From Hyphomicrobiales bacterium (GTDB lineage: Bacteria; Pseudomonadota; Alphaproteobacteria; Rhizobiales; Rhizobiaceae): a DNA stretch of 53,253 nucleotides. The notes beneath the pieces were generated by a model, which was not told where the DNA came from, made no database searches, and saw only the letters and a list, made by a program, of their open reading frames with translations. Made by a program: the position numbers and the translations under genes. This document shows, piece by piece, positions 7,801-27,276 of this stretch. The stretch lies in contig DUSC01000088.1 in assembly GCA_012842935.1 (NCBI GenBank), positions 1 to 53,253 on the forward strand, given 5' to 3'. Positions within the stretch are counted from its first letter, which is position 1. Every line of letters starts with the position of its first letter.

Positions 7801-7830
7801 GCGTTTCCCGTTCCGGAATGCGCAAGTCAC

Positions 7831-10062: not shown

Positions 10063-10557
10063 ATGGGTATGGCCGTCGATCCCCAGACCTTCCGGACGGC
10101 CATGGGCCGCTTTCCGGGGGCGGTGACCATCATCACCGCCCGCTCGGCTACCGAGCGTCGCGGCATCACGGCGACGGCGGTGTGTTCGGTTTCGGCCGAA
10201 CCGCCGAGCCTTCTGGTCTGCGTCAATCGCAAGACCGGCACCTGCGCGAGTATCGATGAAAGCGGGGTCTTCAACATCAACCTGTTGCAGGACCCCTCTT
10301 CCGAACTGGCGATGCGCTTCGCCGGCGCCGGCGGGGCGACCGGCGAGGAAAAATTCGCCGTCGGCGATTGGGACGAAGACGCCCGGGGGCTGCCGATCCT
10401 GAAGGATGCGCTGGTCGCGTTCTGCTGCGAAGTCCGCGAGCGGGTCGACGCCGGCAGCCACGCGATCTTCATCGGCCAGATCGTCGACATCCGCCTGGGC
10501 GACGGCGTGCCGCTGCTCTACGAGCGCTCGCGCTTCCACCGGCTGACGCCGATCTGA
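10063..10557 (+). CDS. StyB-type flavin reductase
   Basis: A 164-residue flavin reductase of the HpaC/StyB fold. The start DPQTFRTAMGRFPGAVTIIT and the segments GITATAVCSVSAEPPSLLVC and FNINLL are typical. It supplies reduced FAD to the adjacent monooxygenase using NADH. It is last in the plus-strand operon and ends convergent with the ABC transporter operon, leaving 145 bases that contain a G/C-rich imperfect hairpin but no clear T-run. Confidence 0.9.
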   Translation: MGMAVDPQTFRTAMGRFPGAVTIITARSATERRGITATAVCSVSAEPPSLLVCVNRKTGTCASIDESGVFNINLLQDPSSELAMRFAGAGGATGEEKFAVGDWDEDARGLPILKDALVAFCCEVRERVDAGSHAIFIGQIVDIRLGDGVPLLYERSRFHRLTPI

Positions 10558-10702: not shown

Positions 10703-11518
10703 TCAAGCCAGCCAGTTGGCCTGGTTGGGGTCGGGCAGCGGGATGGCGTCGAGGAGTTCGCGCGTATAGGCGGCCTGCGGCCGGTCGAACACGGTCTCGA
10801 CCGGCCCGTGTTCGACGATCCTGCCGCGGTAGAGCACCATCACGTGCGAGCACAGGCGGCGGATCACCGAGAGATCGTGGCTGATGAAGGCGAGGGTCAG
10901 GTCGAGCTCGCGCACCAGTTTTTCCAGGAGGTTCAACACCTGCGCCTGCGACGACACGTCGAGGCCGGAGACGATCTCGTCGGCGAGGATGAACTGCGGC
11001 CGCATGGCGATGGCGCGCGCGATGCCGACCCGTTGGCGTTGCCCGCCGGACAGCTCGTGCGGATAGCGCGACAGGAACGAGCGCGGCAGGCCGACGTGAT
11101 CGAGCGCCTCGGCGGCCCGTTCCTTCACCCGGTCGAAGCCGTTCAGCCGGAGCGGGCCGGTGATGATGGTGCTCACCCGGTGCCGCGGATTGAGGGAGGA
11201 CATCGGGTCCTGGAAGATCATCTGCGCCTGGCGGCGGAAGGGGCGGAGCGCGGCCTCGCCGAGATGACTGATGTCCTGGCCGGCAAACCTTATCGTCCCT
11301 CCCGTAGGCTCGATCAGCCTCAGCATGGTCCGCCCCAGCGTCGATTTGCCAGAGCCGGACTGGCCGACGATGCCGAGGATCGAGCCTCGACCGATGTCGA
11401 AGTCGAGCCGGTCGAGGATCTTGATCGGCGGCGCCTTGCCGAACAGCGGCTTGCGTGTCAAGTCGGGCAGGGCGACCTCGAGGCCGCGGACGCTGACCAG
11501 CGGCTCGTCCTCAGACAT
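10703..11518 (-). CDS. Dipeptide/oligopeptide-type ABC transporter ATPase (DppF-like)
   Basis: A 271-residue ATPase with Walker A GQSGSGKST, Q-loop FQDPMSSLNPR, signature LSGGQRQR, Walker B FILADEIVSGLD and H-loop SHDLSV. The DppF/OppF-type tail is present. It is the last gene of the transporter operon and overlaps the upstream ATPase gene by 8 bases. Both ATPases should form a heterodimer under the two permeases. The cargo is not certain: this family carries peptides, opines, glycosides or nickel. Confidence 0.93.
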   Translation of the reverse strand: MSEDEPLVSVRGLEVALPDLTRKPLFGKAPPIKILDRLDFDIGRGSILGIVGQSGSGKSTLGRTMLRLIEPTGGTIRFAGQDISHLGEAALRPFRRQAQMIFQDPMSSLNPRHRVSTIITGPLRLNGFDRVKERAAEALDHVGLPRSFLSRYPHELSGGQRQRVGIARAIAMRPQFILADEIVSGLDVSSQAQVLNLLEKLVRELDLTLAFISHDLSVIRRLCSHVMVLYRGRIVEHGPVETVFDRPQAAYTRELLDAIPLPDPNQANWLA

Positions 11519-12386
11519 GGCGCCACTCCCGGTCGGCTGCTTTCACCTCAGCATCGACGGAGGCGATGACGGCCTCGTCGACGGGCAGGAGCGAGGCGAA
11601 CGGATCCGTGTATTTCGGTGTCGCCGCAAGCAGCGCCTTCGAATAGGCGTGGCGAGGCTCCGCGAAGAATTCGCTCACCGCGCGGTCCTCCACCACCTTG
11701 CCCGAATAGAGCACCGAGAGCTTCTGGCAGACTTTCGAGACGACGCCGAGATCGTGGGTGACGAACAGCATCGCCGTGCCGTGGCGGGCCTGCATCTCGC
11801 GGATCAGCTTCAGGATCTGTTTCTGCACCGTCACGTCCAGCGCCGTGGTCGGCTCGTCGGCGATGATCAGCTTCGGGTTGGCGGCGAAGGCCGCGGCGAT
11901 CAGCACGCGCTGGCGCATGCCGCCCGACAGCTCGTGCGGATAGCTCGCCATGACCCGTTGCGGATTCTGGATCTGCACCTCGTCGAGCAGTTCCAATGCC
12001 CGCGCGCTGGCGTTCGCCTCGGTCCAGCCGAGAATGTCGACCAGCCGGTCGGTGATCTGCCGGCCGATCCGCCGCGACGGATTGAGCGCCGTCAGCGGGT
12101 CCTGCGGGATCAGCGCGGCGACGGTACCGATCGTCCGCCGCCGCTCCTTCTGCGGCATGGCAAGCAGATTCCTGCCGTCGAGCAGGATCTCGCCCTCGAC
12201 GATCGAGACGGCCGACGGCAGGATGCCGAGCACGGCCTTGCCGATCATGCTTTTGCCCGCGCCGCTCTCGCCGACCAGGCCGCGCACCTCACCGGCCTCG
12301 ACCGCTAGGTCGACGGACCGGAGCACGCGCTGCGATCCGCCGCGCAGGATGGCGCTGAGATTTCGGATGGCAAGGAAGGCGTTCAC
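11511..12386 (-). CDS. Dipeptide/oligopeptide-type ABC transporter ATPase (DppD-like)
   Basis: A 291-residue ATPase with Walker A GESGAGKSM, signature LSGGMRQR, Walker B LIIADEPTTALD and H-loop THDLGV. The ORF track runs to 12662, but the correct start is the GTG at 12386, whose GTGA overlaps the stop of the upstream permease; residues before it are antisense-frame noise. It pairs with the DppF-like ATPase. Walker A ends in GKSM in place of the commoner GKST/S, a change at the residue after the Mg-binding Ser, which is not expected to be inactivating. Confidence 0.92.
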   Translation of the reverse strand: MNAFLAIRNLSAILRGGSQRVLRSVDLAVEAGEVRGLVGESGAGKSMIGKAVLGILPSAVSIVEGEILLDGRNLLAMPQKERRRTIGTVAALIPQDPLTALNPSRRIGRQITDRLVDILGWTEANASARALELLDEVQIQNPQRVMASYPHELSGGMRQRVLIAAAFAANPKLIIADEPTTALDVTVQKQILKLIREMQARHGTAMLFVTHDLGVVSKVCQKLSVLYSGKVVEDRAVSEFFAEPRHAYSKALLAATPKYTDPFASLLPVDEAVIASVDAEVKAADREWRHV

Positions 12387-13234
12387 CGGAGCACCGGGTC
12401 GAATCGGTCCTTGAGGCCTTCGCCGAGCTGGCTGAAGGAAAGGACGGTGAGGAACAGCACGACCAGCGGGAACACCAGCACCCACCAGGCTTGGTAAACC
12501 GCGGTGCGACCCTCGGCGATCATGCCGCCCCAGGTTGGCGCGTCGGTCGAGATCGACAGGTTGACGAAGGACAGGATCGCCTCGACGATCACCGCGATGC
12601 CCATCTCCAGCGTCAGCAGGGCGACGATGGTAGGCAGCACGTTCGGTCCGATCTCGCGCCACAATATGCCCACCCTGCCCTGCCCGGCGACGACGGCGCT
12701 GGCGATGTAGTCCATCTTCGACTGGTTCATCGCCTCGGCGCGCACCACCCGGCAGAACCGTGTCCAGTCGATCACCACGATGGCGATGACGATCGAGGAC
12801 AGGCCGGTACCGAGGACCGCGATCAGCAGGATGGCGAACAGAACGGGCGGGAACGCCATCCAGATGTCGACGAGGCGCGAGATGAGGAGATCGGTGCGCC
12901 CGCGCAGATAGCCGGCCAGCAAGCCCAGCAACGAGCCGACGAAGCCGGTGGCGAGACCCGCGATCAGCGCGACGGTGAGCGCCACGCGCGATCCGTGGAT
13001 GATACGCGAGAGCACGTCGCGGCCGAGGCTGTCGGTGCCGAGCAGGTAGACGGGATCGGCACCGTGCATCCAGAAAGGCGGCAGCCTCGCGGCGAACAGA
13101 TCCTGCTCGAGGGGATCGTGCGGGCTTATCAGCGGAGCGGCGAGGGCCAGGAACAGGACGAACACCAGCCAGCTTGCCGAAAGGATCAGCCGCCAGCTCG
13201 CCCTGCGGCCGACCGCTCCGCGTCCGTCAAGCAT
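12383..13234 (-). CDS. ABC transporter permease (DppC-like)
   Basis: A 283-residue inner-membrane permease with about six transmembrane segments. The N-terminal OppC-like region carries LGTDSLGRDVLSRII and the EAA-type loop is seen around ALTLEMG and EAILSF. It pairs with the upstream DppB-like permease, whose stop it overlaps by 8 bases, while its own stop overlaps the DppD-like GTG by 4. Such tight overlaps indicate translational coupling. Confidence 0.92.
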   Translation of the reverse strand: MLDGRGAVGRRASWRLILSASWLVFVLFLALAAPLISPHDPLEQDLFAARLPPFWMHGADPVYLLGTDSLGRDVLSRIIHGSRVALTVALIAGLATGFVGSLLGLLAGYLRGRTDLLISRLVDIWMAFPPVLFAILLIAVLGTGLSSIVIAIVVIDWTRFCRVVRAEAMNQSKMDYIASAVVAGQGRVGILWREIGPNVLPTIVALLTLEMGIAVIVEAILSFVNLSISTDAPTWGGMIAEGRTAVYQAWWVLVFPLVVLFLTVLSFSQLGEGLKDRFDPVLR

Positions 13235-14237
13235 GGCGGAGCCTCGGATTGAGCAGGGCGTAAGTCATGTCGACCAGGAGGTTGATCAGCGTGAACATCA
13301 GGGCGAAGACCAGCACGATGCCCTGGATCAGCGGCAGGTCGCGGTTGATCACCGCGTCGATGGCCATGTTGCCGAGGCCTTCGTAGGAGAACAGCCGCTC
13401 GATGATGACGGTGCCGCCGACGAGGAAGGTGAACTGGACGCCGATCAGCGTCAGCGTCGGCAGGACGGCGTTGGGCAGGCTTTCCGACAGGATGACGTGG
13501 TTCTCGCTGTAGCCCTTGGTGCGCGCCAGCACGACGTAGTCGAGATGCATCGTCTCCTTCAGCGACTGTTTCAGCAGCTGGCTGACGATCGCCGCGAGCG
13601 GTATGGCGAGAGCCAGCGCCGGCATGAACATGTGTTTCAGGAGATCCCACCAGAGATCGAAGCGCAGCCGGACGATGCTCTCGAAGACGTAGAACTGGGT
13701 GACGAAGGGCAGCTCCGCCGAGGGCGAGATGCGACCCGATATGTGGAAGATCGGCATCAGAACGCCGAACAGCAGGATCAGTACCAGTGCCCAGAGGAAA
13801 TCGGGCACCGACAGGCCGACGCCGTTGGCGACGTCGATCGCCGCCTCGGTCTTGGTGCCGCGCCACAGCGTCCCGGCAAGCGCCGAGGCGCCGCCGATGA
13901 TCACGGCAATCACCAGCGCGAAGATCGACAGCTCCAGCGTTGCCGGCAGGCGCCCGAGAACCAGCGGCATGACCGGCTGGCGCAGCGAGATCGACGTGCC
14001 GAAGTCGCCGTGGATCACACCGGTCAGCCAGATCAGGAACTGCTCGGGGATCGACCTGTCGAGGCCGTAATGGGCGCTGAGTCTGGCGATGTCGGTTTCC
14101 GACGCACCGGGCGGCAGCATCATCGCGATCGGATTGCCGGGGACCACACGGATGACGAAGAAGACGACGACCGCTGCCCCGAACAGGGTCACGGCCATCG
14201 TCGCCAGTCGTAGCAGGAGGCTGCGCAACAACGTCAA
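13227..14237 (-). CDS. ABC transporter permease (DppB-like)
   Basis: A 336-residue permease with about six membrane spans. It has the DppB-typical N-terminus (VVFFVIRVVPGNP), the segment YGLDRSIPEQFLIWL and the loop YVVLARTKGYSE. The annotated ORF extends to 14369, but the hydrophobic protein starts near LLRSLLLRLATMAV; I chose the TTG at 14237, which has GAGGA 8 bases upstream. A short hairpin separates it from the substrate-binding-protein gene. The start codon is uncertain by a few residues. Confidence 0.88.
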   Translation of the reverse strand: MTLLRSLLLRLATMAVTLFGAAVVVFFVIRVVPGNPIAMMLPPGASETDIARLSAHYGLDRSIPEQFLIWLTGVIHGDFGTSISLRQPVMPLVLGRLPATLELSIFALVIAVIIGGASALAGTLWRGTKTEAAIDVANGVGLSVPDFLWALVLILLFGVLMPIFHISGRISPSAELPFVTQFYVFESIVRLRFDLWWDLLKHMFMPALALAIPLAAIVSQLLKQSLKETMHLDYVVLARTKGYSENHVILSESLPNAVLPTLTLIGVQFTFLVGGTVIIERLFSYEGLGNMAIDAVINRDLPLIQGIVLVFALMFTLINLLVDMTYALLNPRLRHA

Positions 14238-14278
14238 GCGGCGTGTCCTCGAAATCCCTCGGTCATGTCGGGCGGGCC

Positions 14279-14306
14279 GGGGCGACGTCCATTCCGGCGT
14301 CGCCCC
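14279..14306. repeat. 9-bp stem hairpin between binding-protein and permease genes
   Basis: GGGGCGACG (14279-14287) and CGTCGCCCC (14298-14306) are perfect inverted arms with a 10-base loop. In ABC operons, hairpins after the binding-protein gene often protect its mRNA and raise its level over the membrane components. There is no T-run on either strand, so read-through into the permease gene is expected. Confidence 0.5.
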
Positions 14307-14397
14307 CGCACCCGCCTCTCGGAATCCGCCCCCCCTCGCGGGCAAGAGCCCGTTGCCGAGCTCATGCACGGGCGGCCTGCCCCGATGTGCGTCCCGA

Positions 14398-15924
14398 TCA
14401 GGCCCGCTTCATCAGGTGCGGCAGCAACGCGCCCGAGGTGTGCGGCGTCACGCTGACGCCCGATACGTGCAGGATCGGCTGCACGTACTGGAACAGCGGG
14501 ATCACCAGGGCGTTTTCGGCGATGTAGCGGTCGACGGCCTTCCAGCCGGCGATACGCTTCTCCTCGTCGGCCTCGCCCCACAGCGGCGCGATCATGTCGA
14601 TCAGGTCCTTGCCGTCCCACACCGAGTGGGGCGACGGGCCGAACATGGCGAAGCCGGTCGAGGTGGTCGGGTCGGCGACCGAATTGCCCCAGTTGTAGAA
14701 CGCGGCGGGCGCCAGCTGGTCGGCGGCGCGCAGTTCGTAGTGCTTGGCGATCTCGTAGACCTCGATCTCGGCCTCGATGCCGACCTTGCGCCACAGGCCG
14801 ACGATCGCCTGGATGATCTCGTAGTCCTTCGGCTTGAAGCCGCGGGTCGTCTGGATCTTGAACTTCACCGGGTTTTCCGGCGAGAAGCCGGATTCCGCGA
14901 GCAGCTTCTTGGCCAGTTCGGGGTCGTAGGCGACAGTGATCGACGGGTCGTAGGCGAGATATTCCGGCGTCTCCAGCGTGTCGATCGGCACGCCGTAGCC
15001 CGACAGCAGGCGATCGACGAGAGTCTTCTTGTCGATGGCATGCGCCGCCGCCTTGCGCACGTTGGGATCGAGCATCGGCTCGACGTCGTTGAGGAAGATC
15101 ATGCCGATGTCGGAGATCGGCTTCGCCGTGCCGGCCAGTCCCTCCTTGCCCTTCAGGCGGTCGAACTCCTCGTAGGGCATCTCCAGCGTCACGTGGGCGT
15201 TGCCGGATTCGATCTCGGCGACGCGCGAGGTGGCATCTGTGACGAACTTGATCGTCACGGTCTCGAAGTCGGGCTTGCCGCCCCAGTAGTTCGGATTGGC
15301 CTTCAGGCGCACGAACGCGTTGCGCTCGAACTTCTCGACCATGTACGGGCCGGTGCCGATCGGCGCTGCCTCGAAGCCTTCGGCGCCGACCTTCTCGTAA
15401 TAGGCCTTCGGCAGCACGTAGCCGGTGAGGAAATACATCCACTTGAAGATGGTCGGCTCGAAGCGGGCGACGTCGGCGGTGACCTTGTTGCCCTCGGCCT
15501 TGATGTTGGTCAGCGTCGACCAGATGAACTGGATCGGGTTGCCGGTCTTCTCGTCGGCGGCCCGCGTCAGCGACCAGGCGACGTCCTCGGCGGTGAACGG
15601 CGATCCGTCATGCCAGGTGACCCCCTCGCGCACCGTCATCGACACCTTGGTCTTGTCTTCGTTCCAGCCCCATTCGGTGAGCAGGCCCGGCGCCGGCGAA
15701 AGATCCGGCTGCTGCAGGATGAACTGGTCGAACACCGACTGGTAGATGCCCTGGATCGTCGGGTTGACCGCCGAGGGGCCGACGGTCGGGTCCCACGACG
15801 GCAGGTTCACGTTGTAGGCGATGACCAGCTCGTCGATCGCCGCGGACGCCTTCGCCCCCAGCATGCCCAGCGCCACCGTCGCGGCCGACGCCTTCAGCAC
15901 CGTACGTCTCGAAATGGAATTCAT
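14398..15924 (-). CDS. Family-5 extracellular solute-binding protein, Tat-exported
   Basis: A 508-residue periplasmic binding protein of the peptide/nickel/opine family (SBP_bac_5). The start MNSISRRTVLKASAATVALG is a twin-arginine signal (SRRTVLK), so it should leave the cell folded through Tat. Typical landmarks follow: the domain-I segment LLTEWGWNEDKTKV, TVREGVTWHDGSPFTAEDV and, later, GTGPYMVEKF. A strong GGGGAGAAGGA ribosome site precedes the ATG. It lies 29 bases after the FAD oxidoreductase gene and is probably in the same operon, suggesting that the transported compound is the substrate of that enzyme or its pathway. The ligand cannot be read from the sequence. Confidence 0.92.
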   Translation of the reverse strand: MNSISRRTVLKASAATVALGMLGAKASAAIDELVIAYNVNLPSWDPTVGPSAVNPTIQGIYQSVFDQFILQQPDLSPAPGLLTEWGWNEDKTKVSMTVREGVTWHDGSPFTAEDVAWSLTRAADEKTGNPIQFIWSTLTNIKAEGNKVTADVARFEPTIFKWMYFLTGYVLPKAYYEKVGAEGFEAAPIGTGPYMVEKFERNAFVRLKANPNYWGGKPDFETVTIKFVTDATSRVAEIESGNAHVTLEMPYEEFDRLKGKEGLAGTAKPISDIGMIFLNDVEPMLDPNVRKAAAHAIDKKTLVDRLLSGYGVPIDTLETPEYLAYDPSITVAYDPELAKKLLAESGFSPENPVKFKIQTTRGFKPKDYEIIQAIVGLWRKVGIEAEIEVYEIAKHYELRAADQLAPAAFYNWGNSVADPTTSTGFAMFGPSPHSVWDGKDLIDMIAPLWGEADEEKRIAGWKAVDRYIAENALVIPLFQYVQPILHVSGVSVTPHTSGALLPHLMKRA

Positions 15925-15953: not shown

Positions 15954-17528
15954 CTATCCGGCCAGTTCGCGGCCCAGCATGAAACCCGATCCGGCGCCGA
16001 GCCCGGCGCCCGGCCACACCGCCGCGCCGGTGAGGTAGAGCCCCTTCACCGGCGTGCGCCCCGACGCGTGACCGTACGCCGGGCGGAACAGGAAGTTCTG
16101 CGAAAGATGATGGCTGCCGCAGATCTGGTCGCCGCCGACCAGGTTCGGATTGTCGGCCTCCAGTTCGAGCGGCGACACGACGGCGCGGCCGAGGATCTTC
16201 GACCTCAGCCCCGGCGCATGGCGCTCGATCAGGTCGAGCACGCGTTCGGCATAGGTCTCCTTCACCGACGTCCAGTCGCGCGCCGCGATCGTGCCGGCCG
16301 CGTCGCCGCAAATCTCCGCCGGAACCATGCGCACCTGCACCCACAGCACATGCTTGCCATCCGGCGCCCGCGACGGGTCGACCGCCGTCGGCTGGCCGAC
16401 CACGATCACCGGCTCGTCGGGCAAGAGCCCCGCCATCGCCTGCTGATAGGTCCGCGCCATCTGGTCGAGCGAAGGCGCGATATGCACGTAGGCGAAGCGC
16501 CTGAGCTCCTCGCCCGCCGTCCAGGCCGGCAGGTCGTCCATCGCAAGGTGGATCATCATCGTGCCGGGCGCGTGGGCGAACCGGCGCATGCTCCGGTCGA
16601 AGCCGGCGTCGCCGGAGTTCCCGTCGAGCAACCCGTCGACCAGCCTGCCCGGCGCGACGTTGGCGATCACCGCCTTGCCGGCCATGACGCGGCGGCCGCC
16701 CGAGAGCTCGATGCCGGCCGCCCGGCCGCCCTCTTTCACCACCCGCACCACCTTCTCGTTGCAGTGGATCTCGCCGCCGGCCGCCTCGATCATCCCGCCC
16801 AGTGCGCGGGTGACCGTATCGGCCCCGCCCTTGCCGATGACCATGCCGAAGGCCTGGTTGGCCATCGCCTCGAGATAGGGGAACACAGCACCGCCGGCGA
16901 TGTCGGGGGCGAAGTCGAGATGCATCCCCCAGGCGCCGAGCGTGGCGCGCACATGCGGCGAGGTGAAGGTGTCCGTCAGCCACCTGCGCGGCGACGAGAC
17001 AAGCAGGCGGGCCAGTGCTATCGTCCAGGAAAATCCCCTGCGCAGCGACGCCTTTGCCAAAAGGCGCGCCAATATATGCATTTTCATGGGATTTCCGAGC
17101 AGCGCGAAAATGTACTCGGCGCGCCCGGGGAATTCCTCGAGCATCGCCTGCCAGGTCTCGGCGTCCGCCGGCGACAGCGCCGCGAGGCGTTTCTTCGTCT
17201 CCGCCGCGTCGGTGCCCACCCCGAACCATTTGCCGTCGGGAAAGACGCTGGCGAAGCAGTGCGAGGCCGGCGCGAATTCCAGCCCGTGCTTCATCAGCTG
17301 TTCGCTGTAGGCCTTGAAAAAGGCGGATCCGACAAAAAGGTTGAGGTTCATGGCCGCCCAGTCGTGCCGGAAGCCGGGCTGCGTCAGTTCCAGCGTCTTG
17401 ACTGCGCCGCCCGGTCGCGACGCCTGTTCGAACACGGCGACGCGCCAGCCCTTCGCCGACAGATGGGCCGCACAGGCGAGGCTGTTGTGCCCCGCGCCGA
17501 TGACGACGGCATCGTAGGACTGGCGCAC
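15954..17528 (-). CDS. CrtI/PYROXD2-like FAD-dependent oxidoreductase (copy 1)
   Basis: A 524-residue flavoprotein of the phytoene-desaturase/PYROXD2 type. It begins with a dinucleotide-binding motif VVIGAGHNSLACAAHL followed by EQASRPGGAVKT, and ends with LYLTGAAVWPGAGLGAGSGF, the second FAD-contact region. The ORF track shows a 1343-residue frame, but everything upstream of the GTG at 17528 is antisense to another gene; GAGGGA lies 9 bases before this GTG. It heads the minus-strand operon with the ABC transporter and diverges from the cyclase-family gene. It is a paralogue of the 18474-20045 product. The reaction is unknown; family members oxidise C-C or C-O bonds of hydrophobic substrates. 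Confidence 0.85.
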   Translation of the reverse strand: MRQSYDAVVIGAGHNSLACAAHLSAKGWRVAVFEQASRPGGAVKTLELTQPGFRHDWAAMNLNLFVGSAFFKAYSEQLMKHGLEFAPASHCFASVFPDGKWFGVGTDAAETKKRLAALSPADAETWQAMLEEFPGRAEYIFALLGNPMKMHILARLLAKASLRRGFSWTIALARLLVSSPRRWLTDTFTSPHVRATLGAWGMHLDFAPDIAGGAVFPYLEAMANQAFGMVIGKGGADTVTRALGGMIEAAGGEIHCNEKVVRVVKEGGRAAGIELSGGRRVMAGKAVIANVAPGRLVDGLLDGNSGDAGFDRSMRRFAHAPGTMMIHLAMDDLPAWTAGEELRRFAYVHIAPSLDQMARTYQQAMAGLLPDEPVIVVGQPTAVDPSRAPDGKHVLWVQVRMVPAEICGDAAGTIAARDWTSVKETYAERVLDLIERHAPGLRSKILGRAVVSPLELEADNPNLVGGDQICGSHHLSQNFLFRPAYGHASGRTPVKGLYLTGAAVWPGAGLGAGSGFMLGRELAG

Positions 17529-17663
17529 GATATGTGTTCCCTCAATTTTTGAAAGATAATTGCAAATGCATATTCTTTTGTCTAGCATAATGTTTGAACG
17601 GGCCGGGGAACCGCCACACCGCGAAGGAAGGTGCCCGTCTGCGAGACAACGGAGGACGTATCC
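17529..17663. promoter_or_regulatory. AT-rich divergent promoter region between the two oxidoreductase operons
   Basis: The 135 bases between the two divergent operons contain an AT-rich core (about 17543-17598) in otherwise GC-rich DNA, including TGCAAATGCA and several A/T runs. It must hold both promoters. A MarR gene lies in the plus-strand operon, so this is the likeliest place for its operator, but I could not identify a single convincing palindrome. Confidence 0.5.
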
Positions 17664-18455
17664 ATGAATGCCGCGCAAACTCTGGGAAATCTGGCCAGCC
17701 TGCTCGTGAGTGGGGCGGTTCAGGTCGTCGACCTTTCCGGCCCGCTGGGGCCCGACACTCCCCTTCTGAAGCTCCCGCCGGATTTCGCCAAGGACACGCC
17801 GAAGATCGAGGTCCACAAGATCTCCGAATACGACAAGGACGGTCCGTTCTGGGCCTGGAACTGGCTGAAGATCGGCGAGCATTCCGGCACCCACTTCGAC
17901 GCACCCCACCACTGGATTACCGGCCGCGATTTCGCCGACGGCTTCACCGACACCATTCCGGTGCAGAATTTCGTCGCGCCGCTCAACGTCATCGACTGTT
18001 CGGCGGAAGTCGCCGCCGATCCCGACTTCCTGCTCGATGCCGCCGGCGTGAAGGCCTGGGAGGCGAAGCACGGCGCAATCGGCGCCGGGGAGTGGGTGGT
18101 CATGCGCTCCGACTGGGACAAGCGTGTCCATGACGAGGCGCTCTATCTCAACGCCGACGCCAACGGCCCGCATTCGCCCGGCCCGACGGTCGACTGCATC
18201 GAGTACATCCTGTCCAGGGGCGCGCTCGGCTGGGGCACGCAGTGCATCGGCACCGACGCCGGCCAGGCCGGCGGTATGCAGCCGCCCTACCCTGCACACA
18301 ATCTGCTGCACAAGGCCAACCGCTACGGCCTCGCCTCGCTCGCCAACCTCGACAAGCTCCCGCCCAAGGGCGCGATCCTGATCGCCGCCCCGCTCAAGCT
18401 GGTCCGGGGCACCGGCAGCCCGATCCGCGCAATGGCCCTCGTCCCCCGCTCGTAA
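17664..18455 (+). CDS. Cyclase-family hydrolase (kynurenine formamidase / isatin hydrolase type)
   Basis: A 263-residue metal-dependent hydrolase of the cyclase family (PF04199). The metal-binding signature HxGTHxDxPxH is complete: His73, Gly75, Thr76, His77, Asp79, Pro81 and His83. Characterised members open cyclic or formyl amides, e.g. kynurenine formamidase and isatin hydrolase, which converts isatin to isatinate. ATG 17664 has GGAGG 8 bases upstream; the ORF track's earlier start (17631) is not needed. It is the first gene of an operon with a FAD oxidoreductase, MarR and IorAB. No other kynurenine-pathway gene (kynureninase, tryptophan dioxygenase) is present, which makes kynurenine formamidase less likely in this setting. 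Confidence 0.85.
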   Translation: MNAAQTLGNLASLLVSGAVQVVDLSGPLGPDTPLLKLPPDFAKDTPKIEVHKISEYDKDGPFWAWNWLKIGEHSGTHFDAPHHWITGRDFADGFTDTIPVQNFVAPLNVIDCSAEVAADPDFLLDAAGVKAWEAKHGAIGAGEWVVMRSDWDKRVHDEALYLNADANGPHSPGPTVDCIEYILSRGALGWGTQCIGTDAGQAGGMQPPYPAHNLLHKANRYGLASLANLDKLPPKGAILIAAPLKLVRGTGSPIRAMALVPRS

Positions 18456-18473: not shown

Positions 18474-20045
18474 ATGGCGGATTACGATCAGATCATCGTC
18501 GGCAGCGGCATCAATGCCCTTGTCGCTGCGGCGATGCTTTCCGCGAAAGGAAAGCGCGTCCTCGTGCTCGAGCGCAACGACCGTCTCGGCGGCTGCATGC
18601 GCACCGAAGAGATCACGATGCCCGGCTTCCATCACGACGTGATGGCGGCCACCTTCGTGCTTTTCCTCACCTCGCCCGCCTATGCCGCACTCGCCGCCGG
18701 CCTGGCGCGCCACGGCTTCGAGCTCTGCCACACGAAGCATCCGACGGCCGTTCTGCGGCCTGACGGTTCCTCGTTGGTCCTGACCACGGATCGTGCCGCC
18801 AACGTCGCGCGCTTCGACGCGCTCAATCCCGGCGACGGCGCCCGCCACGGTGCCGATGTCGGCGCCATCGAAGCCGACGCGCCGTTCCTCTTCGCCCTTC
18901 TCGGCGGCGAACTGTGGAGCTGGCCGACGCTGAAGCTCCTCCTCCGCGAGACCTGGAAGCGCGGGCCGCGCGGCCTCGTCGAGTGGATGGGCCGGGCGCT
19001 CGTGCCGGCGCGTGGCTGGCTGGAGACCACTTATGCGTCGGACATGGTGCGCGCGCTCTGGGCGCCGTGGGTCCTGCACACCGGCCTGACGCCGGAATCG
19101 ACCTATGGCGGCCAGATGGGCAAGGTCATCGCGTTCGCCCTCGAGGCGGCGGGCGCGCCGGTAGTCAAGGGCGGCGCCGGCCGGGCGGTCGATGCCTTCA
19201 GGTCGCTGATCGAGGAACAGGGCGGCACGACGCGCACGGGCGTCGACGTCGACCGCATCATCGTACGCAACGGCACGGCCTGCGGCGTCGTCACCGCCAC
19301 CGGCGAAGAGATCTTCGGCCGCGAGATCGTCTGCTCGGTAGCGCCCGGACAACTCTACGGAAGGCTCCTGAAGGGGGTTGCGGAAGCCCGCGGGGCAGAC
19401 GAGGCCGTCGCCCGCTACCGTCACGGACGCGGCGACTTCCAGCTTCACTATGCCGTCGACGGCCCGATCCGCTGGAAGACGCCGGGCCTGGACGACGTCG
19501 CGCTGATCCATCTCGCGGACGGCATCGATTCCGTCTCGAAGTCGGCGAACGAGGCCGAGCGCGGCATGCTGCCGGAGATGCCGACGATCTGTGTCGGCCA
19601 GCCGCACCGGCTCGACCCGTCCCGGTGTCCGGAAGGCAAATCGATCGTCTGGATCCAGATTCCCGACGCCCCGCGCACCGTGAAGGGCGACGCCGCCGGC
19701 AGGATCACGACCTCGGGCGGATGGGACGAGGCGACGCGCGAGGCCTTCGCCGACCGCATCGAGACGATCCTCGCCCGCCATATCGACGGCTTCCCCGGCT
19801 CGGTACTCGCGCGGCGCGCCTACTCGCCGGCCGATCTGGAGAAGCTCAACATCAATCTCGTCGGCGGCGATCCCTATGGCGGCGCCTGCTCGATCGACCA
19901 GTTCTTCGTCTGGCGCCCCTTCGCCGGTTCGAGGGGATCGGCGACGGCCGTCCGCAACCTCCATCACATCGGCGCCTCGACCCATCCCGGCCCCGGGCTG
20001 GGCGGCGGCTCCGGCTTCCTGCTGGCGAAGAGGCTCGGCGGATGA
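18474..20045 (+). CDS. CrtI/PYROXD2-like FAD-dependent oxidoreductase (copy 2)
   Basis: A 523-residue paralogue of the 15954-17528 product. It starts with QIIVGSGINALVAAAMLSAKG, then ERNDRLGGCMRTEE, and ends with GASTHPGPGLGGGSGFLLAK, aligned with copy 1. Both share the inner NLVGGD block near residue 460. The gene starts 18 bases after the cyclase-family gene and its stop overlaps the MarR start (ATGA). The two copies may be functionally distinct or form a hetero-oligomer. The substrate is unknown; oxidation of a dioxindole-like or partially reduced ring would fit the neighbours. Confidence 0.85.
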   Translation: MADYDQIIVGSGINALVAAAMLSAKGKRVLVLERNDRLGGCMRTEEITMPGFHHDVMAATFVLFLTSPAYAALAAGLARHGFELCHTKHPTAVLRPDGSSLVLTTDRAANVARFDALNPGDGARHGADVGAIEADAPFLFALLGGELWSWPTLKLLLRETWKRGPRGLVEWMGRALVPARGWLETTYASDMVRALWAPWVLHTGLTPESTYGGQMGKVIAFALEAAGAPVVKGGAGRAVDAFRSLIEEQGGTTRTGVDVDRIIVRNGTACGVVTATGEEIFGREIVCSVAPGQLYGRLLKGVAEARGADEAVARYRHGRGDFQLHYAVDGPIRWKTPGLDDVALIHLADGIDSVSKSANEAERGMLPEMPTICVGQPHRLDPSRCPEGKSIVWIQIPDAPRTVKGDAAGRITTSGGWDEATREAFADRIETILARHIDGFPGSVLARRAYSPADLEKLNINLVGGDPYGGACSIDQFFVWRPFAGSRGSATAVRNLHHIGASTHPGPGLGGGSGFLLAKRLGG

Positions 20046-20533
20046 ACGACAGCACGGAAATCAAGGCCCGCGACGACGCGACCGTTCCGCGCCTCGGCGA
20101 AATCGGTCTGTCGAACTTCGCTCCCTACCTGATGAACCGCATCATGGGGCGCTACAACGCGACCATCCGCCACGAGATGTCGGCGCTCGGCCTGACGACA
20201 CCGAAGATGCGCTCGCTCGCGGTCCTCTCCGTCATCGACGGGCTGCAGATCCGCGAACTTGCCGTCTATGCGGTGGTCGAGCAGTCCACCCTGAGCCGCG
20301 CCCTCGATCAGCTCGTTGCCGACGGGCTCATCCGCCGCGAGACCGACGCCAACGACAGCCGGGTCACGCGCGTCTTCATCACCGACGCCGGAAGGGCCGC
20401 GTTCGAGCGCATCTGGCCGTCGATGGCGAAGGCCTACTCGAAGATGTTCACACGCATTCCCGACGAGGAGCGCAGGGCGTTCGTCGCCACGCTGCAGAAG
20501 ATGCTGAACAACGTCCGCAAGCACGAGATCTAG
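20042..20533 (+). CDS. MarR-family transcriptional regulator (first of two in the region)
   Basis: A 163-residue winged-helix regulator. The MarR DNA-binding helix is seen in AVVEQSTLSRALDQLVADG and the wing in RRETDANDSRVTRVFIT (about 82-115). It is translationally coupled to the preceding FAD oxidoreductase (ATGA overlap) and followed after 59 bases by iorA. MarR proteins usually repress catabolic genes until an aromatic acid or CoA ester binds. A second, different MarR gene lies in the facing operon (27277-27789), so the pathway appears to have two sensors. Confidence 0.92.
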   Translation: MNDSTEIKARDDATVPRLGEIGLSNFAPYLMNRIMGRYNATIRHEMSALGLTTPKMRSLAVLSVIDGLQIRELAVYAVVEQSTLSRALDQLVADGLIRRETDANDSRVTRVFITDAGRAAFERIWPSMAKAYSKMFTRIPDEERRAFVATLQKMLNNVRKHEI

Positions 20534-20592: not shown

Positions 20593-22740
20593 ATGGCCGA
20601 ACGTTCTTTCGCCAGGGAAGTCCAGAAACTGAAGCTCGGTGCGGGCGAGACCTTCACCAGCGAAGGCATTCTGGCAATCACCAAGGCCCTGCTGGAGAGC
20701 GGGGTGGGTTACGTAGGCGGTTACCAGGGCGCTCCGATCAGCCACCTGATGGACGTGCTCGCCGACGCCGAGGAGATCCTCTCCGAACTCGGCGTGCGTT
20801 TCGAGGCCAATGCTTCGGAGGCTGCCGCGGCGGCGATGCTGGCGGCCTCGGTCCACTATCCCATCCGCGGCGCCGTCACCTTCAAGGGCTCGGTCGGCGT
20901 CAACGTCGCCTCAGACGCGCTCGCCAACCTCGCCTCCTCGGGCGTCACCGGCGGCGCGCTCGTGATCATCGGCGAGGACTACGGCGAGGGCTCCTCGATC
21001 ATGCAGGAGCGCAGCCACGCCTTCGCCATGAAGTCGCAGATGTGGCTTCTCGATCCGCGCCCGAACCTGCCTTCGATCGTACGCTCGGTCGAGCAGGGCT
21101 TCGAACTCTCGGAGGCGACCAATACGCCGGTGATGCTGATGGTACGCATCCGCTCCTGCCACGTCACCGGCAGCTTCACGGCCAGGGACAACCGGCGGCC
21201 CCCCTTCACCGTGAAGGACGCGCTGGCCAACCCGCGCAGCGACTATTCGCGCGTCGTCCTGCCGCCCATGTCCTACGCGCAGGAACAGGACAAGATCAGG
21301 AACCGCTGGCCGGCGGCGCAGAAATACATCCGCGATAAGGGCCTTAACGAGTTCTTCGGTCCGAAGGACGGTTCTGTCGGCATCGTCTGCCAGGGCGGCA
21401 TGTACAACGGCGTGGTGCGGGCCCTGCAGCGCCTCGGGCTCGCCGACATCTACGGCGAGAGCGAAATCCCGCTCTACGTCCTCAACGTCACCTACCCGAT
21501 CGTGGGCGACGAGTTCCTCGACTTCTGCGAGGGCAAGTCCCACGTGCTGGTCGTCGAGGAAGGCCAGCCCGACTTCCTCGAGCAGGCGCTCGGCTCGATC
21601 CTCTACAAGGCCGGCAGCCGCGTCTCGCTGCACGGCAAGGACGTCCTGCCGATGGCCGGCGAGTACACCGGCAAGGTCATGCTCGACGGTGTCGAGGCCT
21701 TCCTGCGCAAGGCGGACTCCGACCTGCTTCCTGCCCGGAGCCGTGCCCCCAACCGGCAGGAGACGCCTGCCATCCCCGACCTGTCGAAGACCGTTCCGAT
21801 CCGCCCGCCTGGCTTCTGCACCGGCTGCCCGGAGCGGCCGATCTTCGCCGCGCTGAAACTGACCGAGAAGGAGCACGGCAAGCACCAGATCGCCGGCGAC
21901 ATCGGCTGCCACCTTTTCGCCTGCCTTCCGCCCTTCGAGATCGGCGGCTCGACCATGGGCTACGGTCTCGGCCCGGCGTCGAACGCCGCCTTCGACGGCG
22001 GCGGCCGGAAGCGCGCGATCTCGATCATCGGCGACGGCGGCTTCTGGCACAACGGCCTGTCGTCCTCCGTCGGCAACGCCGTCTACAACAGGTCCGACAG
22101 CGTCATCGTCGTCGTCGACAATTTCTACTCGGCCGCGACCGGCGGCCAGGACGTGCTCTCCTCGCGCGCCGAGAACGCCACCAAGTCGACCGGCCATCCG
22201 ATCGCCGAGGCGGTGAAGGGCATCGGGGTGAAGTGGGTTCGCCAGATCGACCGCACCTACGACGTGCCGCGCATGCGCAAGATTCTCGACGAGGCGCTGA
22301 CCACCGACTACGCCGGCCCGAAGGTCATCGTCGCCTCGTCGGAGTGCATGCTCAACAGACAGCGGCGCGAGAAGCCTGCCGCCAACAAGGCGATCGCCGA
22401 GGGCCGCCGGGTGGAGAAGCCGCGTTTCGGCGTCGACGAGGACGTCTGCACCGGCGACCACGCCTGCATCCGACTCTCCGGCTGTCCCTCGCTGTCCTTG
22501 AAGAAGCTCGACGATCCGCTGCGCGACGATCCCGTCGCCAGCATCGACCAGAGCTGCGTCGGCTGCGGCAACTGCGGCGAGGTCGCCGACGCCGCGGTGC
22601 TCTGCCCGTCCTTCTATCGTGCCGACGTCGTCTACAATCCCGGCTGGTTCGAGCGCACGCTGTCGGATCTCTCACAGCGCGTCATCGGCTGGCTGCAGAA
22701 GCGGCGCTCCGGCAGGCGCCTCGAATTCGGGCAGGCTTGA
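20593..22740 (+). CDS. iorA: Indolepyruvate-type 2-oxoacid:ferredoxin oxidoreductase, alpha subunit
   Basis: A 715-residue TPP- and Fe-S-containing subunit. In order: an N-terminal pyrimidine-binding domain (about 20-230), a transketolase C-type domain (about 250-380), CTGCPERP near 408, the TPP pyrophosphate motif GDGGFWHNG with VVVDNFYSAATGGQ (about 478-510), and a C-terminal ferredoxin domain with Cys clusters CTGDHACIRLSGC (about 617) and CVGCGNCGEV (about 654). It decarboxylates aryl 2-oxoacids such as indolepyruvate to acyl-CoA, passing electrons to ferredoxin. The beta subunit follows after 1 base. Because it lies between an isatin-hydrolase-like gene and a 2-aminobenzoyl-CoA enzyme, an arylglyoxylate substrate is plausible. 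Confidence 0.92.
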   Translation: MAERSFAREVQKLKLGAGETFTSEGILAITKALLESGVGYVGGYQGAPISHLMDVLADAEEILSELGVRFEANASEAAAAAMLAASVHYPIRGAVTFKGSVGVNVASDALANLASSGVTGGALVIIGEDYGEGSSIMQERSHAFAMKSQMWLLDPRPNLPSIVRSVEQGFELSEATNTPVMLMVRIRSCHVTGSFTARDNRRPPFTVKDALANPRSDYSRVVLPPMSYAQEQDKIRNRWPAAQKYIRDKGLNEFFGPKDGSVGIVCQGGMYNGVVRALQRLGLADIYGESEIPLYVLNVTYPIVGDEFLDFCEGKSHVLVVEEGQPDFLEQALGSILYKAGSRVSLHGKDVLPMAGEYTGKVMLDGVEAFLRKADSDLLPARSRAPNRQETPAIPDLSKTVPIRPPGFCTGCPERPIFAALKLTEKEHGKHQIAGDIGCHLFACLPPFEIGGSTMGYGLGPASNAAFDGGGRKRAISIIGDGGFWHNGLSSSVGNAVYNRSDSVIVVVDNFYSAATGGQDVLSSRAENATKSTGHPIAEAVKGIGVKWVRQIDRTYDVPRMRKILDEALTTDYAGPKVIVASSECMLNRQRREKPAANKAIAEGRRVEKPRFGVDEDVCTGDHACIRLSGCPSLSLKKLDDPLRDDPVASIDQSCVGCGNCGEVADAAVLCPSFYRADVVYNPGWFERTLSDLSQRVIGWLQKRRSGRRLEFGQA

Positions 22741-22741
22741 G

Positions 22742-24334
22742 ATGGCAGACATGATCGTTCTCCCGCCCCGCAAGCCCCACGATCCGGCGATGGACCAGAT
22801 CATCAAGCTGGCCATCATGGCGGTTGGCGGCCAGGGCGGCGGCGTGCTCACCAACTGGATCGAGGATTGCGCCCGGATGAACGGCTACGCCGTCCAGGCG
22901 ACTTCTGTCGCCGGCGTCGCCCAGCGCACCGGCGCGACGATCTACTACATCGAGATGGCGCCGGCCACCGACCGGCAGCCGGTGTTCTCGCTGATGCCCG
23001 CCGCCGGCGACGTCGACATCCTCGTCGCCGCAGAGATGATGGAAGCGGGCCGCGCCATCATGCGCGGCTTCGTCACGCCGGACCGCACGACCTTGATCGC
23101 CTCCACCCACCGCGCGCTGGCCGTGTCGGAGAAGACCGTCCCCGGCGACGGTATCGCCAACTCCGAGGAAGTGCTCGCCGCTGCCGAGATCGCGGCGCAG
23201 CGGCTTATCGCCTTCGACATGGAGAAGATCGCGGTCGAGTCGGGTACCGTCATCTCGGCGAGCCTGCTCGGCGCGCTGGCAGGTTCCGGCGAGCTTCCTT
23301 TTGCCCGCGACAGCTTCGAGAAGGCCATCCGAGCGTCGGGCCGTGGCGTCGAACCGAGCCTGAAGGCGTTCTCCCGGGCCTTCGAGGCAGCGCAGGCCGG
23401 CCGCAAGGAGCTCCCTGCCCGGTCGGAGACCCGACGACCCGCGGGAGCTGGAACGGGGCGCCCCGTGGGACCGAAAAACCTTCTCGATCAATGGGATGCT
23501 CTGGTCCGGCGTGTCGCTGCGCTGCCGGCGCCGGCCAGCGACATGGCCATGCGCGGCCTGAAGGCCGTCGTCGACTTCCAGGACGTCGCGTATGGCGCGG
23601 AATACCTCGAAAAGCTTGAGGAAATCGCCGCGCGCGATCGCGCCGACAGGGAATTCGTCCTCACCGTCGAGGCCGCGAAGTACCTTGCGAAGGCGATGGC
23701 CTACGACGACGTCATTCGTGTCGCCGATCTCAAGACCCGCGCCTCGCGATTCGAGCGTGTCCGCCGCGAGATCCGCCCGGCAAAGGACACGCGCATGATG
23801 CTCACCGAATTCATGCACCCGCGCGCCGAGGAACTCGTCGGTTTGCTGCCGGCAAGAATAGGTAAGCGAATTCAAGCAAGTAGCCGCTCCATGCGGTTGA
23901 TCGACCGGCTCTTCAACCGCGGCCGGCGGCTGCGCACCGACCGGTTGCTGCCGTTTCTCCAGTTGCATCTGCTGGGCGGCCTCCGCCGTTGGCGGCGCGG
24001 CACGCTGCGCCACGCGACCGAGATGGAGCACGTGCGCAGCTGGCTCGACGCCGCGCTTTCGCATCTCGACGGCCGGGTTTTACCCCCCGATAGCGGCTAC
24101 GATATTGCCGTTGAAATCGTCCGCAACCGGCGCCTGATCAAGGGCTACTCGGATACCCACGCGCGGGGCCTGTCGAAGTATGACCGCGTGATGCAGGCGG
24201 TGGAACTCGTCGCCGGGCGGCCAGACGCGGCGAGCTGGCTCCGCCGACTGCGCGAGGCGGCACTCCTCGACGAGGAGGGAAAAGCCCTTGACGGCGCCCT
24301 GCAGACGGTAAAGTCCTTCGCTGGAAACAATTAG
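22742..24334 (+). CDS. iorB: Indolepyruvate-type oxidoreductase beta subunit with C-terminal DUF6537-like domain
   Basis: A 530-residue subunit. Residues 20-230 are the gamma-type catalytic domain of 2-oxoacid oxidoreductases (MAVGGQGGGVLTNWI, then SVAGVAQRTGATIYYIEMAP). Residues about 260-520 form an all-helical extension of the type found in long IorB proteins of aerobic proteobacteria. It forms the active complex with IorA. The start at 22742 follows the iorA stop by one base; the ORF track's earlier start lies inside iorA. The long two-subunit form is typical of aerobic or facultative bacteria, so oxygen exposure need not exclude function. Confidence 0.9.
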   Translation: MADMIVLPPRKPHDPAMDQIIKLAIMAVGGQGGGVLTNWIEDCARMNGYAVQATSVAGVAQRTGATIYYIEMAPATDRQPVFSLMPAAGDVDILVAAEMMEAGRAIMRGFVTPDRTTLIASTHRALAVSEKTVPGDGIANSEEVLAAAEIAAQRLIAFDMEKIAVESGTVISASLLGALAGSGELPFARDSFEKAIRASGRGVEPSLKAFSRAFEAAQAGRKELPARSETRRPAGAGTGRPVGPKNLLDQWDALVRRVAALPAPASDMAMRGLKAVVDFQDVAYGAEYLEKLEEIAARDRADREFVLTVEAAKYLAKAMAYDDVIRVADLKTRASRFERVRREIRPAKDTRMMLTEFMHPRAEELVGLLPARIGKRIQASSRSMRLIDRLFNRGRRLRTDRLLPFLQLHLLGGLRRWRRGTLRHATEMEHVRSWLDAALSHLDGRVLPPDSGYDIAVEIVRNRRLIKGYSDTHARGLSKYDRVMQAVELVAGRPDAASWLRRLREAALLDEEGKALDGALQTVKSFAGNN

Positions 24335-24360: not shown

Positions 24361-24798
24361 ATGGCCGTCTGCTACACGACCGACCGTATGCTGCATTTCG
24401 GTGACTGCGACATTTCCGGAACGGCCTACTATCCCTCCTACCTCAACATCCTGAACGGCGTCATCGAGGAATTCTGGGCCTCGATTGGCTATCCTTGGCA
24501 CGAGATCATCTGGAACGAACGCTGGGGCACGCCGACGGTTCACCTGACCTGCGACTTCTCCAAGCCGTCCTTCTTCGGCGACAGGCTGACCTTCAGATTG
24601 ACCATAACCCGGGTCGGCAAGTCGTCGGTGACGATCGAGCACACGGTGCATTGCGGCGACGAGCCGCGCTGGGCGGGCAAGCAGGTGCTCGCCGCCAGCT
24701 GGCTCGACAAGCACACGTCGATGGCCTGGCCCGACGACGTCAGGGCCAAGCTCCTGTCGATGCTGTCTTCCGAGACGCCCGCCGCGACCCCGGCATAG
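24361..24798 (+). CDS. 4-hydroxybenzoyl-CoA-type hotdog thioesterase
   Basis: A 145-residue single hotdog domain. The motif HFGDCDISGTAYYPSYL (12-28) matches the 4HBT active-site loop, and Asp17 is at the position of the catalytic Asp of the Pseudomonas enzyme. It hydrolyses aryl- or acyl-CoA esters. AGAGG precedes the ATG and it is 26 bases from iorB, so it is the last gene of the plus-strand operon. In this context it may release an aminobenzoyl- or ring-opened acyl-CoA, or rescue CoA when the route stalls. Confidence 0.87.
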   Translation: MAVCYTTDRMLHFGDCDISGTAYYPSYLNILNGVIEEFWASIGYPWHEIIWNERWGTPTVHLTCDFSKPSFFGDRLTFRLTITRVGKSSVTIEHTVHCGDEPRWAGKQVLAASWLDKHTSMAWPDDVRAKLLSMLSSETPAATPA

Positions 24799-24841: not shown

Positions 24842-25246
24842 TCAGGCGGCGGACCGCCCGATTTCTGCCGTCGCCTCGATCTCGACGAGCGCCTCGTCCT
24901 CGACGAGGCCGGCGACGACCAGCAGACTCATCGCCGGAAAGTGACGGCCCATGACCCGCTGATAGGCCTCGCCGATCTCGCGCTGGCGGGCAACGTATTC
25001 GCGCTTGTCGGTGACGAACCACGTCAGCCGGACGATGTCCTTCACGCTGCCGCCGGCCGCCGTGACGACGTCGACGATGTTCTTCAGCGCCTGCTCCATT
25101 TGCGCGACGAAGTCGCGGCTTTCGAAGACCTGGTCCTTGTTCCAGCCGATCTGGCCGCCCGCGTAGAGCCGCGTCCCGTCGACGAGCACGCCGTTGGCGT
25201 AGCCCTTGGGCTTCTTCCAGCCGGGAGGATTGATGGTCTCGATCAT
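24842..25246 (-). CDS. Rid-family (YjgF/YER057c/UK114) protein lacking the RidA arginine
   Basis: A 134-residue Rid protein: ADGTRLYAGGQIG-like core (seen as RLYAGGQIGW), then FPAMSLLVVAGL and VEIEATAEIG. In RidA the Arg of FPARSCV is the catalytic residue that binds the imine/enamine carboxylate; here the position is Met106. So archetypal 2-iminopropionate deaminase activity is unlikely, but other Rid groups act on different amino-substrates. ATG 25246 is the family start. It ends the minus-strand operon, 47 bases after the acyl-CoA dehydrogenase. Deamination of the cyclic enamine formed from 2-aminobenzoyl-CoA would be a sensible job, but this is inference. Confidence 0.85.
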   Translation of the reverse strand: MIETINPPGWKKPKGYANGVLVDGTRLYAGGQIGWNKDQVFESRDFVAQMEQALKNIVDVVTAAGGSVKDIVRLTWFVTDKREYVARQREIGEAYQRVMGRHFPAMSLLVVAGLVEDEALVEIEATAEIGRSAA

Positions 25247-25293
25247 GGTTTCTCCGATCACGTTTCCTGGTTCAGTCTCGCCGGGCGTCCGCC

Positions 25294-26468
<1,175 letters not shown>

Positions 26469-26469
<1 letters not shown>

Positions 26470-27272
26470 CAGTCGCCCCCGAAGATCGGTTTCCGCTTCG
26501 CCGCGAATGCCTCGAAGGCGCGGCCGAAGTCCCTCGTCTGCATGCAGATGGCCTGGGCCTGGGCCTCCGCCTCGATCGCCTGCTCGAGGCTCATGTTCCA
26601 TTCCTGGGCGAGCATGGTCTTGGTCATCATGTGCGCGAAGTTGGGACCCTCGGCGATACGCTCGGCGAGCGCCTGCGCTTCGGCGTCGAGGGCGTCGGCA
26701 GCGACGATGCGGTTGAAGAAGCCCCAGCGCTCGCCCTCGTCCGCGGTCATCGTGCGGCCGGTATAGAGGAGCTCCGAGGCGCGGCCCTGGCCGATGATGC
26801 GCGGCAGCATCGCGCAGGCGCCCATGTCGCAGCCGGCGAGGCCGACGCGGGTGAACAGGAAGGCGGTCTTGGCTTCCGGCGTGCCGATGCGGATATCGCT
26901 TGCCATGGCGATGATGGCGCCGGCGCCGACGCAGATGCCGTCGATCGCCGAAATGACCGGTTTGCCGCAGGCAATCATTCCCTTGACCAGGTCGCCGGTC
27001 ATCCGCGTGAACTCGAGGAGACCCTTCATGTCCATGTCGAGCAACGGCTTGATGATCTCGAAGACGTCGCCGCCCGAGCAGAAGTTGCCGCCATTCGAAC
27101 CGAATACGACAGCCTTGACGGCGTCGTCGTAGCGCAGCGCGCGGAACCAGTCGCGCAGCTCGGCGTAGCTCTCGAAGGTCAGCGGGTTCTTGCGCTCCGG
27201 CCGGTCGAGGCGGACGGTCGCAACCCCGTTCGCAACGGACAGGAGGAAGTGCTTGGGTGTCGTCCTGTTCAT
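26469..27272 (-). CDS. Crotonase-fold enzyme, possibly a BadI/MenB-like ring hydrolase
   Basis: A 267-residue enoyl-CoA hydratase/isomerase-family protein. The first oxyanion-hole segment is [12 protein letters not shown] (about 61-72), the second [17 protein letters not shown]. The hydratase glutamates are missing: the Glu144 position is Ala in GAGAI, and the Glu164 region reads [11 protein letters not shown], where Asp149 stands. BadI (2-ketocyclohexanecarboxyl-CoA hydrolase) and MenB also use an Asp in that segment (from memory of those families). So simple hydration is doubtful and hydrolytic C-C ring cleavage is an attractive alternative. It is 4 bases downstream of the MarR gene and coupled to the acyl-CoA dehydrogenase. 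Confidence 0.88.
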
Positions 27273-27276
27273 TCCT

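Follow-up and report, generated by a model that had tools for sequence, protein, structure and literature searches.

An IHB-type isatin hydrolase with a likely central place in indole degradation by a Hyphomicrobiales bacterium

Overview

The stretch of DNA analysed here (53,253 nucleotides, contig DUSC01000088.1 of a Hyphomicrobiales bacterium, referred to as the window) carries at 17664..18455 (+) a gene which, on the basis of its sequence and of a phylogenetic tree, encodes an orthologue of isatin hydrolase B of Labrenzia aggregata (LaIHB), that is to say an IHB-type isatin hydrolase (IH). Most likely the enzyme acts midway in a pathway of indole catabolism whose genes surround it. As an enzyme IH is an ordinary further member of the known isatin hydrolase family, and what is worth following is rather the exchange of IH for IifA and the substrate proposed for IorAB. 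The existence of a bacterial indole route through isatin is still debated, the genes of the window look like a complete route of this kind, and the presence of IH where other clusters carry an IifA-type gene makes the question testable. Chances are about even that the window represents a second set of genes by which indole can be degraded aerobically, in which an FAD oxidoreductase and IH would replace IifA, and in which IorAB would oxidatively decarboxylate isatinate straight to anthraniloyl-CoA instead of a simple decarboxylation giving anthranilate. If this is true, isatin is a genuine pathway intermediate, and IorAB, together with IadAB of the auxin-degrading iad loci, gain a substrate. 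Loci (L) and genomes (G) are designated by our own numbering.

Identification of the isatin hydrolase

The IH frame is open over 263 aa plus a stop and has a codon bias of the coding type (GC per codon position 0.67/0.47/0.87). Its protein scores 111.6 bits with Pfam Cyclase PF04199 (cut-off 23.1), and the metal motif HxG[T/A]HxDxPxH, which an earlier note on this DNA had described as intact in the form HxGTHxDxPxH, is complete as HSGTHFDAPHH. Among solved structures the top match, end to end and with 466 bits, is LaIHB (4j0n/4m8d), followed by isatin hydrolase A of L. aggregata (LaIHA) and the Ralstonia enzyme (RsIHA) at 277-285 bits, the best kynurenine formamidase (KynB) reaching 28.7 bits. 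Identity amounts to 73.7% with LaIHB over the full length, 52.0% to LaIHA, 50.2% to RsIHA and 22.8-25.0% to three KynBs.

In an alignment with LaIHB, LaIHA, RsIHA and the three KynBs (LaIHB numbering is used throughout), the Mn ligands His73, His77 and Asp79 are kept, as are the catalytic His83 and the Asp198/His212 dyad, while W63, W65, W84 and Y209 align with the aromatic pocket and a GLAS signature is present at position 222-225. GLAS or GLQC together with the manganese site is the signature diagnostic of isatin hydrolase activity, its KynB counterpart being I(L/I)E (Sommer et al., PMC6117287). The Mn ligands, the dyad, His83 and GLAS are thus shared with LaIHB (from Labrenzia (Roseibium) aggregata), but the latter has F63 and F209 instead of W and Y, which are also found in LaIHA and RsIHA. 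The A-type enzymes (L. aggregata 5nna; Ralstonia solanacearum 5nmp) have the fold family, the metal motif and 50-52% identity in common with IH, whereas they carry GLQC, lie on separate branches and, in the case of the Roseibium IHA, belong to an iad-like locus.

A tree of 48 proteins including eleven KynB was built with IQ-TREE and places the protein in the LaIHB clade with a support of 100/100, all eleven KynB forming a clade of their own (99/98). Several of the branches leading to KynB and to the outliers are long, which leaves their inner order unsure, but KynB and the isatin hydrolases are firmly separated, as motif and scores both confirm. The earlier note had argued for an isatin hydrolase rather than a KynB and had proposed phylogenetic placement as a check; identities, GLAS and tree all bear this out, and no grouping with KynB occurred.

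Given its orthology to LaIHB, the protein very probably hydrolyses isatin. One Mn2+ bound by His73, His77 and Asp79 would hold isatin in a pocket walled by Trp63, Trp65, Trp84 and Tyr209, and the Asp198-His212 dyad and His83 would activate the water by which the lactam is opened to isatinate (2-aminophenylglyoxylate).

Indole monooxygenase operon and absence of IifA

The neighbours named in the earlier note are indeed found in the window, namely 'StyAB' (8826-10058 and 10063-10557), IorAB (20593-22740 and 22742-24334) and a gene of the 2-aminobenzoyl-CoA type (28544-30862). The first of these belong to an indole-monooxygenase operon located 7.6 kb from IH, which consists of an SDR dehydrogenase at the IifB position (7981..8757, +), an indole monooxygenase of the StyA/IndA flavoprotein family (8826..10058, +; PF17885) and its flavin reductase partner (10063..10557, +; PF01613), with an AraC-family regulator (6796..7830, -; PF14525, PF12833) in divergent orientation. 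By analogy, the SDR would convert indole-2,3-dihydrodiol to dioxindole. The monooxygenase matches the Variovorax-type flavoprotein 7z4x, which we take to be an indole monooxygenase, with 644 bits vs 122 bits for the styrene monooxygenase StyA (3ihm). Being so much closer to the former, it led us to reject styrene catabolism as the main reading.

The SDR adjoins the monooxygenase also in L098, L102, L105, L110, L111, L113-L115 and L158-L160. Nine genomes of the order contain a close indole monooxygenase and all nine contain IH. Outside the class, two genomes (L158, L159) have an SDR-monooxygenase-flavin reductase-IH-FAD2 operon; Azospirillum thermophilum (L098) has AraC and SDR-monooxygenase-reductase-transporter-FAD2-IH, and in G294 and G010 the genes of the window occur together in another order (L102-L105). 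The shared history of the clusters inflates all co-occurrence statistics given here, and independent arrangements outside the order weigh more than p-values. Locus counts below refer to the 49 related IH loci for which 9 kb or more of sequence is available on either side (fully flanked loci). Just two of these 49 IHB loci have an indole monooxygenase within 10 kb of IH, hence the usual source of isatin in those bacteria may differ.

In the published iif cluster, IifA is a cofactor-independent oxygenase which converts dioxindole directly to anthranilate (PMC6221969). A 411-residue dienelactone-hydrolase/SnoaL-like (IifA-type) protein, by position and family presumably IifA itself, adjoins the monooxygenase in 6 of 17 sampled monooxygenase genomes. 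Five of these six are without IH and the sixth has it in an iad-like locus, so that the two genes are never linked, while IH is present in 11/11 monooxygenase genomes without the IifA-type gene (Fisher p ~0.001, with ancestry shared among the genomes). No match to the IifA-type gene was found in the window, nor beside its monooxygenase, and the host genome holds no close relative, the best match (32%) covering the DLH domain only. Compared with the iif/ind pathway of Acinetobacter O153 and Cupriavidus SHE (PMC6221969), the window therefore has the same block of indole monooxygenase, flavin reductase, SDR and AraC genes, but IifA is missing and IH, FAD2 and IorAB are present instead.

A role of IH in indole degradation is probable. 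Gene content, linkage, co-occurrence and the absence of an IifA-type gene are what is observed of the route; its reactions are without exception what we infer, those of FAD2 and IorAB most of all. The monooxygenase and the flavin reductase would oxidise indole, the SDR would yield dioxindole, FAD2 (or air) would turn dioxindole into isatin and IH would hydrolyse isatin to isatinate. IorAB, acting as a 2-oxoacid:acceptor oxidoreductase, would then convert isatinate and CoA to anthraniloyl-CoA and CO2, and the ABM-type monooxygenase/reductase described below would dearomatise the product.

Genes adjoining the isatin hydrolase

FAD2 (18474..20045, +) is a CrtI/CrtO-like NAD(P)/FAD-dependent oxidoreductase and would be the dioxindole dehydrogenase/oxidase that gives isatin. 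It stands beside IH in the SDR-IMO-FR-IH-FAD operons of L158 and L159 and in L098, and its PDB matches are weak only. The regulator MarR1 (20042..20533, +), 47% identical to the MarR of a Roseibium iad-like locus, is present in 45 of the 49 fully flanked loci. FAD1 (15954..17528, -), a paralogous FAD-dependent oxidoreductase divergent from IH, is present in 41 of them. The space between the divergent FAD1 and IH genes contains a promoter-like element (17560..17588, +) of the form TTGCAA-17 bp-TAGCAT with ATTTGCAAAT-like and ATGCAT palindromes. Its exact core, TTGCAAATGCAT-N7-TGTCTAG, is a single site in the window and precedes IH in 37/80 related loci (39 loci are listed including the window's own copy), and the element is a putative operator of the linked MarR regulator.

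A Dpp/Opp-type (peptide/nickel) ABC transporter is encoded at 10703..15924 (-), with two ATPases, permeases at 12383-13234 and 13227-14237 and a solute-binding protein at 14398-15924. It is kept together with IH and FAD1 in 39/49 fully flanked loci (~80%). Indole, which diffuses freely, is not an obvious cargo for it.

IorAB and its candidate substrate

An IorA-like TPP/2[4Fe-4S] 2-oxoacid oxidoreductase subunit (20593..22740, +; TIGR03336, TPP_enzyme_C, GDG and CX2CX2C motifs) and an IorB-like subunit with a DUF6537 extension (22742..24334, +) are encoded next to each other. IorA would be part of a CoA-acylating isatinate (2-aminophenylglyoxylate):acceptor oxidoreductase. Isatinate is a 2-oxoacid (arylglyoxylate), hence the proposed step would be chemically like that of phenylglyoxylate:acceptor oxidoreductase. 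IorA reaches 274.8 bits with TIGR03336 (cut-off 650.9), and IorB 666.6 bits with NF006179 (cut-off 348) and 54.7 bits with TIGR03334 (cut-off 205.8), so both subunits miss the curated IOR alpha/beta equivalog cut-offs of indolepyruvate:ferredoxin oxidoreductase. Neither has a PDB sequence match, and the substrate is thus not readable from a template.

In a survey of 298 genomes of the order, 38 of which have IH, IorA (counted at ≥ 64% identity) was present in all 38 and absent from 253 of the 260 genomes without IH (Fisher p 3e-41, kinship ignored). At the level of loci, IorA is found within ~ 10 kb of IH in 46/49 fully flanked loci and the series IH-MarR-IorA-IorB is kept in order and strand in 44/49. 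The link extends in other arrangements to more distant isatin hydrolases, with an IorA-IorB-IH operon beside a 2-aminobenzoyl-CoA (ABM) cluster in L166, IH-IorA-IorB in L165, and a Burkholderia locus (L101). Furthermore, iorA and iorB have been described as exclusive markers of the iad loci, whose route passes through isatin, and as absent from the iac loci, whose route does not (PMC9613470). For IorAB/IadAB, published as a marker of auxin-degrading iad loci (PMC9613470), linkage with IH proposes a substrate. In the open-access literature we found no paper assigning IorAB/IadAB a function or a substrate, and searches that combined IorAB with isatin, or anthraniloyl-CoA with indole degradation, returned only PMC9613470 or nothing.

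We consider it roughly a toss-up whether IorAB acts on isatinate. According to the family name, IorAB could instead be an ordinary indolepyruvate:ferredoxin oxidoreductase giving indoleacetyl-CoA and tied to IH only via shared indole regulation, a reading which agrees with the presence of IorAB and MarR1 without IH in G041 and G081 (L124, L125). It is the somewhat less likely reading, given that both subunits lie under the IOR equivalog cut-offs, that IorA accompanies IH in 38/38 genomes and forms the IorA-IorB-IH operon of L166, and that IorAB mark the iad loci (isatin) and not the iac loci (PMC9613470). A few genomes in all have IorAB and MarR1 without IH (L124-L130), so the substrate of IorAB need not be isatinate. 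In G041 and G081, where MarR1-IorA-IorB without IH occurs in genomes carrying a true KynB, IorAB may act on another aryl-2-oxoacid; in L124 these genes are followed by those of a TRAP-type transporter.

Probable lower pathway of the 2-aminobenzoyl-CoA type

Past a 4HBT-type thioesterase (24361..24798, +), a block of the 2-aminobenzoyl-CoA lower pathway occupies 24842..30862 (-). On this strand it comprises RidA (24842-25297), an acyl-CoA dehydrogenase (25294-26601), an enoyl-CoA hydratase (26469-27272), a MarR regulator (27277-27855), an SDR (27786-28589) and an FAD monooxygenase fused to an OYE domain (28544-30862; PRK08255 1280.7 bits; FAD_binding_3 and Oxidored_FMN). The fusion is of the 2-aminobenzoyl-CoA monooxygenase/reductase (ABM) type; its NCBI family name being salicylyl-CoA 5-hydroxylase/oxidoreductase, 2-aminobenzoyl-CoA is a candidate substrate. 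ABM-type genes are near IH in 12/49 flanked loci, and the gene set is also found beside distant IH in L164 and L166.

A fused FAD monooxygenase/OYE together with beta-oxidation genes is likewise a feature of the anthraniloyl-CoA pathway (Azoarcus evansii; Arthrobacter Rue61a, PMC3534580), but the host genome differs in having no CoA ligase over the family cut-off, which fits an entry of CoA through IorAB. The best acyl-CoA ligase in the genome reaches 264.9 bits against the benzoate-CoA ligase cut-off of 375.25, which may miss anthranilate-CoA ligases. Many weaker acyl-CoA ligase relatives are present in the genome and an anthranilate-CoA ligase may be among them.

Directly past the ABM-type gene, MaiA-like (maleylacetoacetate isomerase) and fumarylacetoacetate hydrolase-family genes (31024-32357, -) are found, and then an aldehyde dehydrogenase. 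The genes at 31024-32357 resemble those of gentisate-type ring cleavage, and no gentisate dioxygenase is among the genes annotated in the window.

Relation to the iad loci

Isatin and isatinic acid have been detected on the iad route (PMC9613470). The iad locus of Variovorax and Bradyrhizobium (PMC9613470, PMC12633357) resembles the window in having isatin on its route, an IH-family gene (at the IadI position) and IorAB (IadAB), but differs from it by the Rieske IadCDE and CoA ligase/thiolase upstream vs a flavin indole monooxygenase, and by IHA vs IHB. It is therefore conceivable, although we hold it to be unlikely, that indole-3-acetate or some other derivative of indole, and not indole itself, is what the island degrades, with IH in an iad-like route. 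LaIHA is found in an iad-like locus, to whose MarR MarR1 is 47% identical, IorAB are published iad markers (PMC9613470), and L131-L134 and L161 have other IadCDE-FGH neighbours. On the other hand, by annotation no IadCDE, IadF or IadG is present in the neighbourhood of IH, the indole-monooxygenase operon lies 7.6 kb away, and the IHB clade is apart from the iad-linked IHA sequences.

An isolated Rieske ring-hydroxylating dioxygenase alpha subunit is encoded at 49826-51058 (+), unlinked to the genes above, with no beta subunit recognised nearby. On inspection of the translations, the genes at 44904-47934 (+) look like those of a molybdate regulator and a ModABC transporter. On a Roseibium aggregatum plasmid (L100; NZ_CP045623.1, 2635-11487), an isatin hydrolase A locus has the gene content of an iad locus, namely MarR, reductase, Rieske alpha and beta, CoA ligase, thiolase, SDR, cyclase and SDR. 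IadI bears the annotation kynurenine formamidase, and this gene content suggests that it is a member of the isatin hydrolase A family.

Other cyclic amides as substrates

Related cyclase-family enzymes differ in substrate, and genetics has placed IadI after C8H7NO2, its authors proposing a possible broad-specificity amidase (PMC12633357); dioxindole is thus a possible alternative substrate of IH. More generally, isatin might be hydrolysed only in vitro, the IHB-fold enzyme having another oxindole (dioxindole, oxindole itself or a substituted isatin) or some related cyclic amide as its physiological substrate. Such a reading would draw on the placement of IadI (PMC12633357) and on the many IH loci which have a peptide-type ABC transporter and no indole monooxygenase, but it is quite improbable, considering that pocket and catalytic residues match those of structurally solved isatin hydrolases and that both isatin and isatinic acid have been found as compounds of the iad route (PMC9613470).

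Comparison with kynurenine formamidase

That the protein is a KynB, i.e. a binuclear zinc hydrolase of N-formylkynurenine in tryptophan catabolism, has only a vanishing probability and is already refuted at the sequence level: the superfamily and the HxGTHxDxPxH motif are common to both and TIGR03035 (KynB) touches the protein with 29.9 bits, but this is 193 bits short of the curated cut-off of 223, the identity is 23-25%, the ILE motif is absent, KynB form a separate clade, and no tryptophan 2,3-dioxygenase (TDO) or kynureninase (KynU) was found in the genome. Score, motif, tree and genome content thus all led us to reject a KynB. Known KynB (4cog, 4cob, 4co9) share Pfam Cyclase and HxG[T/A]HxDxPxH with IH but differ by their binuclear zinc site (PMC6117287), and where the I(L/I)E motif of KynB provides the second-metal glutamate, IH has GLAS. 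The earlier note had reported a neighbourhood without kynureninase and TDO, and this holds beyond the window: TDO, KynU and KynB above the curated cut-off are each without a hit in the whole host assembly (4.03 Mb), an absence which is not absolute since the assembly is only ~ 89% complete. The same genome contains further cyclase paralogues (L084-L087), all of which stay below the KynB cut-off; L084 and L086 were included in the tree and fall outside the isatin hydrolase clade. In the order as a whole, KynB above the cut-off is present in 13 of the 298 genomes.
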